Below are positions 22,755 through 28,567 of a stretch of DNA of 47,256 bases, one piece after another (within the stretch, counting starts at the first letter, position 1; each line of letters starts with the position of its first letter). Location of the stretch: positions 1 to 47,256 of the forward strand of contig DUYW01000004.1 in assembly GCA_013349825.1 (NCBI GenBank), in the 5' to 3' direction. Source of the DNA: Gammaproteobacteria bacterium (GTDB taxonomy: Bacteria > Pseudomonadota > Gammaproteobacteria > GCF-002020875). Made by a program: the position numbers and the translations under genes. The notes beneath the pieces are model-generated. The model saw only the letters and a list, made by a program, of their open reading frames with translations. It was not told the origin of the DNA and searched no databases.

Positions 22755-25730
22755 TTAAAACTCTTCCCACTCTGAATCACTTGATGACTTTGCCGATACC
22801 AGGCTTGGTTTTGCCTCAGCTGCTGGTTTTCGAATTGTCGCTGGTGCTGCTGTAGTACTGCTCGCAACCGGTACCGATTCAGGGCTATCATTGAAAGCTG
22901 CTGACTCGATTTTATTGAGCAGATCAACCACCTGTTTAGAGAGTGGCTCAATCTCATTGAAACGCTGCTCTGCCTCCTGTTCGTTGCCTGATTTTTTCAG
23001 AGTCACAATCTCACTAATGGTTGTATGCATCTTCTCATGCACTTGATCCATCTCTTTCATTTCGGAAAGATAGGCAAATTTCTCACGTCCTTCCCAGTCA
23101 AGCCACTGCCCTAACATGCACTCGTGGTGTGAGACTGCTGACTTCTGGTCCATCTCAATTACACCATCCAGGAACCCTCTGATTTTCCCTCTCCAGGCCA
23201 GATGTGCAGAACGAGCCTTCATAAAGGTATCCGCGTACTCACCCTGAGCTGTGCCTATTTTGGCCATAGAGGAGAGTGCTGATGGGCTCAATTTAAAGAT
23301 TGAAACCACTTTACTCAACTCATCTGCCTGATGACTTAATTGAGAGCTGGAGGCAGCACTCTCTTCAACCAGTGCCGCATTCTCTTGTGTTGCACTATCC
23401 AGTTGCGTTACAGCCAGATTTACCTGATCAATCCCTTGTGTCTGCTCTTTGGTGGAGGCTGCAATTTCACCTGAGATATCATTCATCTTCTTCACAGACT
23501 CTTCAATTGCTTCAAGCGCCTCGCCACTTCGACCCACCAATTCAGCACCTTGCTCAATTCTGCTGGTCGTATCCTCAATCAACCCTTTAATATCCTTTGC
23601 TGCATCCGCAGAGCGTTGAGCCAAGGTTCTTACTTCTCCGGCAACCACCGCAAACCCCCGCCCATGTTCACCCGCACGAGCCGCCTCAACAGCGGCATTC
23701 AATGCCAAAAGGTTGGTCTGGAATGCGATACCATCAATCAAGCTGATAATCTCAGCAATTTTGTTGCTGGATTCATTGATACCTTCCATTGCCTTCACGG
23801 TATCTGCAACCACAATCCCCCCCTCTTTTGCCCGTCGTACTGATTCTGCAGCCAGCTGATTTGCCTGTGCTGCATTATCAGCATTCATGTTTACGGTGCT
23901 CGCCATCTGTTCCATGCTGGCAGCAGTCTCTTCCAGGCTGGCTGCCTGCTCAGAGGTCCGGCTGGAGAGGTCCATGCTGCCTTTTGAAATCTCATCAGAA
24001 CCACTGCGTACCAGTTCTGCAACAGAGCGCACCTTGGCTACAATCTGTTCAAAGTTAGTCTCGGTTGCATTGATAGAGTCTTTCAACACCCCTAATGCCC
24101 CCTGATAACTCCCCTCAATTTGGCGTGTCAGATCCCCTTCGCCCATTCGATTCGCCACCTGAACCGTCTCTTTTAATGCCCCCCCTAGGGCTTCCAGTGA
24201 CTGGTTGAGGTTTTGCTTGAGTGTATCCAGGTCGCCATAGGCTGTTTCTGTAACTCGGGCATCAAATTTTCCGATCGACACCGCACTCATCACCTGATTC
24301 ACATCATTGATGATCCGCTCCATGCTCTCCATTGCATTGATTAGGGATAGCTGGAACTCCTCTTCCATCTCGACCCCATCCAGACGATAGTCAAAACGTC
24401 CGTTTGAGATCGCATCCATCACCTCTTTGAGACCACCCATTGTCTTTTGCACACTATCGGCTGACCCATTCACCCCCTCTTTCAGAGTCAACAGATCTCC
24501 TTTAAGGTCTGCGGTCACACGATCTGTATAGACACCTTGTGCAACACCTGCCACCACCTTATTGGTCTCACTAATAGAAACCTGAAGCTTCTCCAGTAGC
24601 GTATTAAAAGATGTAGCAATATCCCCAATTCCATCCTGAGTTAAGACTTCGGTCCGTCTGGAAAGGGTTCCTTCATTCACCACTTCTTGTATCGCTTCAC
24701 GAATACGGATAACCGATAAACGGACGGTAGTACTCACTTGATAGGCAATAAAGACTGTCACACTAAACAGGACAACAATCAGAAACAGATAGATTCGGGT
24801 CACAAGAGCTGTGTGATCAAGCATCGTTTTACTCTCATTCAGGATATCCTGCCCCAAATAATCATCAACCTTTTTTAGTTGGTTTATTTTAAAAGTCATT
24901 GTTTTAAACCAATGCTCTGCCTCGATCCCAAAACCACCACTCTGAGCCTTTTCAAAAGCAACTTTTCGCATCTGTTCCACTGTTTCAACCGATTCATGAC
25001 GCATCGTTTTTTGATAAAACTGCTGACTCTTCTCTGAAGCCAGCGTTTTGAATACATGAAGAAAATTCTTTTGTGCTGTCACCAGCTCAATAAATTTCTT
25101 ATACATTCCCGGTGCAAACTGATTACTGCTAAAGGTTGCACTGAGAACCGCTCGTTCGATACCCACACGCTCTTTACTCTGCAGGTAATTCACATAGGCA
25201 GAAATTGTAGCCACCAATTTCGCATCGCTGATTCCATGAGGCATCTGTTCTACCACAGCCAACAGTTTGGTATTCATCTGGGTATACCAACTCACTACTT
25301 GAGGTAAGGGCAGAGCTAGACGGCTCACCTGTTGGCGAATTGAACTGATCTGTTGAAGTTCACTCAATAGTGCATTGAGCCGCTGCTCAATAATGGTCCC
25401 GTGTTGAGAGATATCAATGGTTGAGAGCAGCTCGTTCAGAGCTTTACTTCTCTGGTCCGTTAGGTCACGCTGTTTCGGCAAAATATCTGCAAATTTCTGC
25501 CCTTTGCTACCAATGAACCCGGCACTGGAGCCTCGCTCTTTCTGTGTCTCATGAATCAGTGCGCTAAGATGAGACGCAAGCTGGCTCATTTCTACTAACT
25601 TCTCCATCTCCTCGTGTTTGTAATCCTGATCCAGCAGGCTATCTATCGAGAAATAGAGCATTGCAACCAGAGGGATTGCAATCATTAAATATAGTTTTGT
25701 TTTGAGTCGAAAAGAAGAGAGAAACCTCAT
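22755..25730 (-). CDS. Methyl-accepting chemotaxis protein with NIT sensor and CZB domain
   Basis: A 991-aa chemoreceptor. The ATG at 25730 is preferred over TTG/GTG two codons earlier because AAAGGAA lies seven bases before it. TM1 is near 8-25. An all-helical NIT-type sensor contains HETQKERGSSAGFIGSKG, the nitrate/nitrite-sensing family signature. TM2 is near 314-336. A HAMP domain is followed by further HAMP-like segments to about 560, then a complete MCP signalling hairpin with FQTNLLALNAAVEAARAGEH. A C-terminal CZB zinc-binding domain (HLAWRGKI, SHHECMLGQWLDWEG, HEKMH) follows. The chain ends WEEF, resembling the C-terminal tether used by CheR/CheB. Nitrate sensing is inferred from the domain. 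Confidence 0.94.
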   Translation of the reverse strand: MRFLSSFRLKTKLYLMIAIPLVAMLYFSIDSLLDQDYKHEEMEKLVEMSQLASHLSALIHETQKERGSSAGFIGSKGQKFADILPKQRDLTDQRSKALNELLSTIDISQHGTIIEQRLNALLSELQQISSIRQQVSRLALPLPQVVSWYTQMNTKLLAVVEQMPHGISDAKLVATISAYVNYLQSKERVGIERAVLSATFSSNQFAPGMYKKFIELVTAQKNFLHVFKTLASEKSQQFYQKTMRHESVETVEQMRKVAFEKAQSGGFGIEAEHWFKTMTFKINQLKKVDDYLGQDILNESKTMLDHTALVTRIYLFLIVVLFSVTVFIAYQVSTTVRLSVIRIREAIQEVVNEGTLSRRTEVLTQDGIGDIATSFNTLLEKLQVSISETNKVVAGVAQGVYTDRVTADLKGDLLTLKEGVNGSADSVQKTMGGLKEVMDAISNGRFDYRLDGVEMEEEFQLSLINAMESMERIINDVNQVMSAVSIGKFDARVTETAYGDLDTLKQNLNQSLEALGGALKETVQVANRMGEGDLTRQIEGSYQGALGVLKDSINATETNFEQIVAKVRSVAELVRSGSDEISKGSMDLSSRTSEQAASLEETAASMEQMASTVNMNADNAAQANQLAAESVRRAKEGGIVVADTVKAMEGINESSNKIAEIISLIDGIAFQTNLLALNAAVEAARAGEHGRGFAVVAGEVRTLAQRSADAAKDIKGLIEDTTSRIEQGAELVGRSGEALEAIEESVKKMNDISGEIAASTKEQTQGIDQVNLAVTQLDSATQENAALVEESAASSSQLSHQADELSKVVSIFKLSPSALSSMAKIGTAQGEYADTFMKARSAHLAWRGKIRGFLDGVIEMDQKSAVSHHECMLGQWLDWEGREKFAYLSEMKEMDQVHEKMHTTISEIVTLKKSGNEQEAEQRFNEIEPLSKQVVDLLNKIESAAFNDSPESVPVASSTTAAPATIRKPAAEAKPSLVSAKSSSDSEWEEF

Positions 25731-26038
25731 CACCAAATTCCTTTAAGCTTGATTAAACACACATTTAAAATATGGATATATATTATGAACCATTCAAAAT
25801 CAGGGTCAGTCGGTGAGTATACTGTTGATTTTCAATCTGTGCTACCAATCGTCTTTCGTACACACAAAATCACCCCGCATGTAACTTATTGAAGACAAAA
25901 AACCTGTCCTCACACAGAGGTGAGAACAGGTAGAGCCCCCCAGCAGAGGAGGAGGTTGTGGGAAGCTCGCTATAGTGATTCATGCCTCCTACAGTTATTC
26001 CCACTATTCCATCTATTTTTTTCAAAACGGTAGCGGGT
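25731..26038. other. 308-base gap between MCP and sensor-kinase genes
   Basis: This region holds the kinase-gene terminator at 25896-25931 and presumably the MCP promoter nearer 25740-25850, which is AT-rich. A 71-codon minus-strand frame over 25870-26085 shows no protein-like features and crosses the kinase gene, so I do not call it. Nothing else is recognised. Confidence 0.5.
25896..25931 (-). terminator. Terminator downstream of the sensor kinase
   Basis: ACCTGTCCTCAC (25902-25913) pairs with GTGAGAACAGGT (25920-25931), with one mismatch in 12. On the minus strand the stem is followed by a T-rich run (complement of 25896-25902). It separates the two-component pair from the MCP gene. Confidence 0.85.
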
Positions 26039-27709
26039 CTAATCCATTTGATAGGGTAGCCAAAGTTGTGCAGCTGCACCCTCACCCTTACCTTGACTAT
26101 CCAAGGTCAATTTCCCACCGACAGAGGCCACAAAATTCCCGGCCACATGGAGACCAAAACCTTGATTATTGAACTTTGTAGTGAACCCATAACGCATCAG
26201 CTTATGTTGAATATCCGGATCAATCCCATCCCCATTATCCTCGATCACCAGCTTCACACCGCCATCCTCTTGTACTGCCCGGATGATAATCACTCCACCC
26301 CCTTTCTGTAGTTGCTTCTGGTAAATTGCCTCACCAATCGCCTCCATACTATTGGTAATCAAAATCATTAGTACCTGCAATAGCTGGTTTCTGGGTAGCC
26401 GCACCTCAGGGACCACCTCATCAACTTGCCGCTGAAGGTCGATGGCTCTTCTGCGCATATCAGTCTCTAGCAATATAAACAGATCATCCAGCAACTGCAC
26501 AATTGAAAAACGGACCAGACTCCCCTTTAATTTAGGCCCTAAATATTGAGGTCTTACCGCCGTGGCAATCTGCTCCATCCCTCGCCATACACTCTCTTTA
26601 TTGCGCTCAAATTGCTGAAACAGATCTTCTAAAGCATCTGGCAGGCGCAGAGATAACATATTGACAGATGTCTTTACTTTCTCCAGGTCACCCTCCACCA
26701 TCGCCAAACTCATCTGTTGCTGAATACGTACAAAAACCTCCTTGAGCTTGTGCATCTCATCAATCCCCTGCATCATCTCAGCAAAAGAGGATTGGGTTGA
26801 CTGAATGGTATTCCCCACATGGTGAAGGATACTGGAAGACATCTCGGCAACTCCTGCCTGAAAAGCCGCAAACTGCTCACGCGCCTCTATACGTACACGA
26901 CTGCTTAAATCACTCAATATCAGCACATGCCGCTGCTGTTTGTGGTGCTTACTTCCCCAGTAACGAAAGGCATAATGGAGCAACAGATGGCTACCATCTG
27001 CTTTCTCAATGGTAATTTCCCCTCTGGCAGGGTTTGGTTCATATTTAAGCAGACGCTGAATGGTCGGCAGTGGACTTTTGATAATCCTCTCTGCATCCAT
27101 TCCAAATAGCTGTGTAGCGGCTCCATTTACATAGAGCAACTGCCCCTCATGGTCTGACACCAGTATGGATTCATCCACAGTCTCTAGAACGGATTCGAGA
27201 GTACCTTCAAGACGTTGCCTCATCTCCTGCTCTTTCAACTGACCGCACAACTGTTGATCAAAATAGTGCGTTAGCTGCAGCACCTCCTGATCCAGAAATG
27301 GAGCCCCCAACAGCAATTCCTCTTTTTGCAGCTGGATCAGTGGTTGAGCATGCCGTTCACGTTCGGCCACAAACACACAGTGAACCCCTGTTGCACAATC
27401 CCGAACAACCTCCAACAACTGCTCTCCAGCCGCTCCAGAACAGATCGCCTCCGTGATAAAGGCAACGATAAAAGGCTCCCGCTGATCTGGTTGAATAAGG
27501 GTCACCGCTTTAGCAGCGGTGGAGACGCAAATCAAATCAAAGTAGCCCTCTGAAATAGTCTCGCTCTGTTTAAAGATTTTTCGAAAATGGTCATGCCGGG
27601 TTAAATCTCCATCAACGATCAGAACCTTTCTGCCAGAATGTTTGTTTGCTGCACGACCAATCAAGGCATCCACAGAGGAGACCATCGTTATAGGGTCTAG
27701 ATTAGTCAA
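26039..27709 (-). CDS. Soluble sensor histidine kinase with degenerate receiver and PAS domain
   Basis: A 556-aa cytoplasmic kinase with no membrane segment. Residues 27-150 resemble a receiver fold (KVLIVDGDLTRHD) but lack the phospho-acceptor aspartate: the expected site reads VAFITEAI. A coiled segment (155-172) and a PAS domain (172-275, ILVSDHEGQLLYVNGAA) follow. The H-box is unusual, SSSILHHVGNTIQSTQ (H296/H297), rather than the common SHELRTPL form. The ATPase domain is complete, with N-box ITNSMEAI (N453), G1 DNGDGI, F-box GFTTK and G2 GFGLHVAGN. It lies 42 bases after the XRE-receiver gene on the same strand and is its likely partner kinase. The signal is unknown. Confidence 0.88.
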   Translation of the reverse strand: MTNLDPITMVSSVDALIGRAANKHSGRKVLIVDGDLTRHDHFRKIFKQSETISEGYFDLICVSTAAKAVTLIQPDQREPFIVAFITEAICSGAAGEQLLEVVRDCATGVHCVFVAERERHAQPLIQLQKEELLLGAPFLDQEVLQLTHYFDQQLCGQLKEQEMRQRLEGTLESVLETVDESILVSDHEGQLLYVNGAATQLFGMDAERIIKSPLPTIQRLLKYEPNPARGEITIEKADGSHLLLHYAFRYWGSKHHKQQRHVLILSDLSSRVRIEAREQFAAFQAGVAEMSSSILHHVGNTIQSTQSSFAEMMQGIDEMHKLKEVFVRIQQQMSLAMVEGDLEKVKTSVNMLSLRLPDALEDLFQQFERNKESVWRGMEQIATAVRPQYLGPKLKGSLVRFSIVQLLDDLFILLETDMRRRAIDLQRQVDEVVPEVRLPRNQLLQVLMILITNSMEAIGEAIYQKQLQKGGGVIIIRAVQEDGGVKLVIEDNGDGIDPDIQHKLMRYGFTTKFNNQGFGLHVAGNFVASVGGKLTLDSQGKGEGAAAQLWLPYQMD

Positions 27710-27751: not shown

Positions 27752-28456
27752 TCAATGAAGCAGCTCTCTCGCCTGCTGCCATTCATGCGCCATAAATGTT
27801 GAAAGCTGTATCAGTTCATCCTGCATATAGGGCTTCTGATGAAACACAAAGTGGCTCCCCACCTCTTCACGCATCTTCTGCAAAGTATGATCACGGTAGG
27901 CTGAAATAATGATTATTCGGATTTCAGGATCAACCTTACGGATTTCCCGAGCTGTTTTCAGACCATCCCAACCATTCGGCATACGCATATCCAGAAACAA
28001 CAGGGTATAGGGCAGATTTTGCTTCACGGCCTCTTTGACCCGCTTCAGCCCGACCTCACCACTGGTAACGGTATCAATGGTAAATTTCTGACTCTCTACT
28101 GAGCTGGAGGTAGCCTGTAGAAGCTCTAACAGTGAACTGATTCCACTCTGCTGTGTTGATTCAAAAGTCTGTTGGTAGCCTCGCAAAATCTCCGGATCAT
28201 CATCGACAGCAAGAATGCGAATCGTCTCCAACAATGGAACTATGCCATTTTTTACCTCTCTGGAGAGCTGCTGCGGCCTAAGCGGATAACCCAAATAACG
28301 AAAGACACGATCCACCTTGTCGAAACCACCATGAAAACGGCTATTTTCCATCATTGACAGCTCTTGACGACTGTTACCAGTGGCATCCGCCAATTGCTGT
28401 TGTGTCATTCCTGCCTGTTTACGCAAAACTTTCAGAAGATCCCAGAAATTATCCAT
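27752..28456 (-). CDS. Response regulator with N-terminal XRE helix-turn-helix (XRE-receiver fusion)
   Basis: A 234-aa regulator with inverted architecture. Residues 1-65 form a Cro/C1-type helix-turn-helix (VLRKQAGMTQQQLADATGNSRQELSMMENSRF). Residues 78-225 form a receiver with acidic pocket AVDDDPE, phospho-acceptor D156 (FLDMRMPNGWDG), ISAY and K208 (HQKPY). An insertion of about 30 residues follows the first receiver helix. Most response regulators place the receiver first and use OmpR, NarL or NtrC outputs, so this layout is uncommon. The ATG at 28456 starts the helix-turn-helix directly and has AAGGA upstream; an ATG at 28468 is the alternative. Two palindromes upstream are its probable operators. 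The cognate kinase follows. Confidence 0.88.
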   Translation of the reverse strand: MDNFWDLLKVLRKQAGMTQQQLADATGNSRQELSMMENSRFHGGFDKVDRVFRYLGYPLRPQQLSREVKNGIVPLLETIRILAVDDDPEILRGYQQTFESTQQSGISSLLELLQATSSSVESQKFTIDTVTSGEVGLKRVKEAVKQNLPYTLLFLDMRMPNGWDGLKTAREIRKVDPEIRIIIISAYRDHTLQKMREEVGSHFVFHQKPYMQDELIQLSTFMAHEWQQARELLH

Positions 28457-28517: not shown

Positions 28518-28532
28518 TTAGAGTACCTCTAA
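28518..28532 (-). promoter_or_regulatory. Operator-like palindrome 1
   Basis: TTAGAG-TAC-CTCTAA is a perfect 6-3-6 inverted repeat. On the minus strand it covers a possible -10 element (TACTCT, 28525-28520) lying 16 bases after a TTGACT -35 candidate (28547-28542). Binding here would block transcription of the XRE-receiver gene. Confidence 0.65.
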
Positions 28533-28552: not shown

Positions 28553-28567
28553 TTAGAGTATCTCTAA
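28553..28567 (-). promoter_or_regulatory. Operator-like palindrome 2
   Basis: TTAGAG-TAT-CTCTAA is the same perfect 6-3-6 inverted repeat, centred 35 bases from copy 1 and upstream of the -35 candidate. Flanking bases are also conserved (CTTAGAG before and AAA/AAG-TAT after), so the paired sites are very unlikely to be accidental. Confidence 0.65.

Follow-up and report, generated by a model that had tools for sequence, protein, structure and literature searches.

The gene at positions 27752–28456 on the minus strand of the window, the 47,256-nucleotide stretch of gammaproteobacterial DNA that was analyzed, encodes a 234-residue response regulator; what is new here is that a reversed domain order, an apparently HipB-like XRE domain, and an inserted receiver are combined in one such protein. 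The reading frame was taken to start at ATG 28456, with ATG 28468 and TTG 28489 as other possible in-frame starts. The domain assignments come from the translation, in which HTH_3 (residues 8–59, E 6.7e-9, 36.1 bits against a curated cut-off of 23) and Response_reg (E 7e-15, 55.6 bits against 30.2) both score above their Pfam thresholds; the latter match is split by an insertion and its larger piece covers residues 113–217. In an AlphaFold2 model generated with an alignment of inserted receivers (mean pLDDT 87.4), both folds are present, the receiver fold being complete and the helix-turn-helix being made up of five helices (residues 4–15, 19–26, 30–37, 45–54, and 61–68), while the linker, residues 63–69, is weak. 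The profile score together with the five-helix fold places the protein among the XRE (HTH_3) proteins, and a receiver with an acidic pair, a phospho-acceptor aspartate, and a lysine places it among the two-component response regulators. The claim of the sequence-only reading that a complete XRE-type helix-turn-helix lies N-terminal to the receiver is thus borne out by Pfam, AlphaFold2, and Foldseek, the domain being detected by profile methods and structure prediction alike.

The receiver occupies residues 79–233 (27758–28222, minus strand) and resembles solved receivers in Foldseek comparisons. The numbering given earlier for its key residues, Asp156 as phospho-acceptor and Lys208, is correct, and the acidic pair Asp85/Asp86 completes the site; across 33 aligned inserted receivers, Asp85, Asp86, and Asp156 are invariant and Lys208 is nearly so. 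The insertion lies between α1 and β2, at approximately residues 101–122 (28091–28156, minus strand), where the alignment places it and pLDDT is lower. It had been described as unusual, which does not hold: the genome to which the window belongs (G000, 2.87 Mb) contains 31 matches to the protein, about 28 of which are other receivers with the α1–β2 insertion, and the alignment shows it at the same location, with variable length, in the other inserted receivers from this genome and related ones. The insertion is therefore an ordinary mark of a subfamily; what sets the protein apart is that its XRE domain precedes the receiver. The other inserted-receiver proteins of the genome, which include hybrid kinases, REC-GGDEF and REC-GGDEF-EAL proteins, and single receivers, share the insertion and an invariant Trp226 with the XRE-receiver protein but differ from it in having no domain that matches its XRE domain. 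Among the inserted-receiver proteins scanned with Pfam, the outputs were HisKA-HATPase-REC-Hpt, HATPase, GGDEF, GGDEF-EAL, GAF (in genomes other than this one), or none recognized, and no DNA-binding output was found. The inserted receiver is mostly N-terminal in these proteins and internal in a few, for example at L101, where it follows NIT and kinase domains, and at L106. Across the genus, inserted-receiver matches number 31 in G000, 59 in the congener G003, 32 in G002, and from 1 to 7 in the other three congeners, a large and uneven expansion.

The XRE domain (residues 4–60; 28277–28447, minus strand) appears to be of the HipB antitoxin type. Its top NCBIfam match is couple_hipB/Y4mF (E 2.1e-8, and 2.2e-9 for the orthologue described below), with a score of 34.0 bits that lies under the curated cut-off of 71.65; the XRE proteins adjacent to HipA at L083 and L114 are also under this cut-off, at 42.4 and 54.2. 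Foldseek matches to Stl/Orf20, HipB, and restriction-modification C proteins have weak E-values (3e-3 or above) for this short domain, and Legionella HipB superimposes with a TM score of 0.71 and an rmsd of 1.0. The nearest stand-alone XRE relatives in other genomes are mostly located beside toxin genes, two beside HipA and one beside a ParE-like gene that scores just below the Pfam cut-off. The HipB-like assignment is made with moderate certainty, given how short XRE domains are and how broadly they resemble one another. It does bear on the earlier description of the DNA-binding module as phage-repressor-like: among the nearest relatives of the helix-turn-helix, HipB-type antitoxins figure no less than phage repressors. 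An origin of the gene from phages or viruses was considered and rejected, the viral contigs yielding no relative and the phages a partial match to the receiver only. Although the domain is like those of the HipB/Y4mF antitoxins in its best profile match and in its resemblance to solved HipB folds, here it is fused to a receiver and the partner gene encodes a histidine kinase instead of HipA; no HipA toxin gene adjoins the XRE-receiver gene, whose neighbors encode the kinase and a methyltransferase. Elsewhere in the genome there are six HipA-like genes (L133–L138), two of them with recognizable HipB-like XRE neighbors. The XRE proteins beside these two match a profile of the XRE group, a result that is partly circular because the profile contains antitoxin sequences.

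The earlier statement that a kinase adjoins the gene was also correct, and this kinase is intact. The probable partner is a 556-residue histidine kinase (26039–27709, minus strand) that starts 42 bp downstream of the XRE-receiver gene, at TTG 27709 or at an ATG further in, and comprises a pseudo-receiver, a PAS domain (Pfam, E 6.4e-6), an H-box, and a HATPase_c domain (E 2.4e-14). The H-box, ILHHVGNTIQ with His296 (in its longer form AFQxGVAEMSxxILHHVGNTIQ), is missed by Pfam HisKA, but alignment with 14 relatives shows that it is intact, as are the N and G boxes. A degenerate receiver in the N-terminal region of the kinase (residues 46–152; 27254–27574, minus strand) matches the HMM of inserted receivers with an i-E of 1.7e-4 at Z=5000 and has no Asp at the LDMRMP position; it is a degenerate copy of the receiver type found in the partner. 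The presence of this Asp-less copy suggests that the kinase may have descended from a receiver-kinase fusion. The XRE-receiver gene and the kinase gene are likely to form a two-gene unit. A strong intrinsic terminator with a 12-bp stem and a T run (25902–25931, minus strand) follows the kinase gene and separates it from the next gene on the same strand, which encodes a NIT-HAMP-MCP-CZB chemoreceptor (22755–25736); cotranscription with this MCP gene was rejected on account of the intervening terminator. Kinases of the same core adjoin inserted-receiver genes at L099 and L108 of this genome, at L079 and L080 of genomes in the G120 family, and at L088 on a Variovorax plasmid, so that the pairing is recurrent. 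At these five loci an inserted-receiver gene with varying output stands beside a kinase whose H-box is of the AFQxGxxEMSxxxLHNxGN type, though diverged in the Variovorax kinase.

A similar pair is present in the same order in the congener G003: the orthologue of the XRE-receiver protein there has 63–64% identity, and the next gene, which overlaps that of the orthologue by 8 bp, encodes a kinase with a core of the same family. The helix-turn-helix domains of the two orthologues are 61% identical, and their recognition helices are nearly identical (RQELSMMENSRF against RQEVSMMENNRF).

Upstream of the XRE-receiver gene, a sequence search found two copies of the perfect palindrome TTAGAGnnnCTCTAA, at 62–111 bp 5′ of the start codon. 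The candidate operator nearer the gene, TTAGAGTACCTCTAA, is at 28518–28532, and the second, TTAGAGTATCTCTAA, is 35 bp further upstream at 28553–28567; both are included in a 29-nucleotide direct repeat with 86% identity and the same 35-bp spacing. No other exact copy of TTAGAGnnnCTCTAA occurs in the 2.87-Mb genome, and five congeners lack the palindrome. In 2000 dinucleotide-shuffled versions of the intergenic region no palindrome ever appeared twice, whereas a single palindrome of such length is frequent in them (39%). A search of the genome for a wider regulon at up to one mismatch gave 8 sites against 7 in a reversed control, and the one-mismatch sites were rejected as a regulon, those inspected falling in coding sequence or in unconvincing places. 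No convincing σ70 promoter was found at the palindromes, and a TTGACT lies between the two. The duplicated palindromes suggest that the XRE-receiver protein may regulate its own gene. It should be noted, however, that the region upstream of the G003 orthologue contains no TTAGAG site and has a different palindrome, TTTTACAGTTGTAAAA, which is present once in that genome and whose quality is reached in 5% of shuffles of the region. The two palindrome types could not both be operators if the orthologues recognize identical DNA; because the recognition helices are near-identical yet the palindromes differ, at least one type is doubtful in this role.

From these sequence comparisons we infer phosphotransfer between the kinase and the receiver, binding of the palindromes, and repression together with its direction. 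It is plausible, as had been suggested, that phosphorylation adjusts the action of a DNA-binding module resembling a repressor, and the two gene-specific palindromes upstream lend this some indirect support. The kinase would phosphorylate Asp156, after which the receivers would pair or be oriented differently, and this would affect how well two HipB-like XRE domains fit a palindromic operator. Most likely the protein would act at the promoter region of its own gene, which contains the two copies of TTAGAGnnnCTCTAA, making the operon self-regulating in the manner of an antitoxin operon, but under the control of a kinase. The preferred sign is that phosphorylation would favor dimerization and DNA binding. 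HipB has a dimerizing strand at the position that follows its XRE domain, whereas the corresponding segment here (LGYPLRPQQ) contains prolines and is predicted to form a turn and a helix; this replacement would leave dimerization to the receiver and is the reason for which promotion of binding is favored. This reading, a kinase-partnered XRE-receiver protein whose phosphorylation promotes dimerization and DNA binding at its own promoter region, is given about an even chance of being correct. The opposite sign, in which the unphosphorylated protein would be a ready-made XRE repressor and phosphorylation would release it, is a tentative alternative, improbable on balance yet substantial, and is the first of the two options named in the sequence-only reading. 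It draws on the candidate operators upstream of the gene and on the fact that XRE/HipB proteins usually act as ready-made repressors of the operons that encode them, but it is weakened by the prediction of no stand-alone dimerization strand after the helix-turn-helix.

It is possible, but rather unlikely, that the protein, as a DNA-binding regulator controlled by the same kinase, has its true targets elsewhere, at weak or degenerate sites, and that the TTAGAG palindromes serve another regulator. The G003 orthologue, with its near-identical recognition helix and no TTAGAG palindrome, fits this explanation, but palindromes that are duplicated here and missing from the rest of the genome are more what would be expected of a local autoregulator than of a global regulator. 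That the XRE domain serves in protein-protein interaction or is a relic, with the receiver acting as a single-domain phosphate relay or sink in the manner of other receiver-only proteins of the genome, is very improbable. In its favor are the many inserted receivers encoded in the genome, some of which lack a recognized output domain, and the location of the orthologue in a chemosensory-type cluster; against it are the 61% identity in the helix-turn-helix and an almost unchanged recognition helix. Equally remote is the idea that a two-component system has taken over the DNA-binding domain of a HipB-type antitoxin, yielding an antitoxin-like regulator that answers to a kinase and might in addition act on hipBA operators or HipA partners at other loci of the genome, with its six HipA-like genes.

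The order of domains can be compared with recorded response regulators. XRE is listed among response regulator outputs with the receiver N-terminal to it (PMC4601284); these REC-XRE regulators also have a receiver and an XRE helix-turn-helix in one protein, but in an order that is the reverse of that found here, where XRE (residues 8–59) precedes the receiver (residues 79–233). The output classification quoted in PMC2222644 is without XRE. C-terminal receivers are recorded with BetR, AlpA, HxlR, LysR, and MerR outputs (PMC4601284). The BetR-type regulators, listed in PMC4601284 and PMC4395418, have according to PMC4601284 a helix-turn-helix before the receiver, as here, but differ in its family, and no BetR domain was matched by Pfam in the XRE-receiver protein at E ≤ 0.01. 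LtrR of Methanococcoides burtonii, which is paired with the kinase LtrK in an operon-like arrangement, also has an N-terminal helix-turn-helix followed by a receiver, but it is archaeal and its helix-turn-helix is of the GlpR type as opposed to XRE (PMC4823666). The XRE-first architecture is uncommon, but helix-turn-helix-first response regulators are on record in LtrR and the BetR type. No characterized XRE-first response regulator was found in the literature searched, which covered few subscription papers. If confirmed, the present protein would be a worked bacterial example of such a regulator, in which, because the domain order is reversed, switching could not simply copy the OmpR or NarL models, and would show how a kinase can come to control an autorepressor of the antitoxin type; two-component signaling as a whole would look no different. 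The compact operon and the two unique palindromes make the proposal directly testable.

Among the six genomes of the genus, the XRE-receiver gene is present in G000 and G003 only. Outside the genus, no further XRE-receiver protein was found in 369 genomes of the class, in an overlapping sample of 399 genomes of the phylum, or in the order of G120, and none was found in viral contigs, phages, or plasmids; these searches detect relatives of this protein, miss unrelated fusions, and are not a measure of how rare the architecture is. A search of the genome_contigs set with the protein returned low-identity receiver matches only. The plasmid matches were rejected since they lie over the receiver, as were the alignments from S. 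meliloti that reach back to residue 42, which are weak (E 4e-4, 25% identity) and come from a locus (L087) with receiver and kinase matches and no XRE match. The G003 pair is located at L047 (G003:C86:1-20000), where, as read from the translations, it lies among genes of the CheA, CheB, and CheR-TPR types together with numerous receiver-kinase genes; the cluster may encode a chemosensory pathway that serves a different function in the cell.
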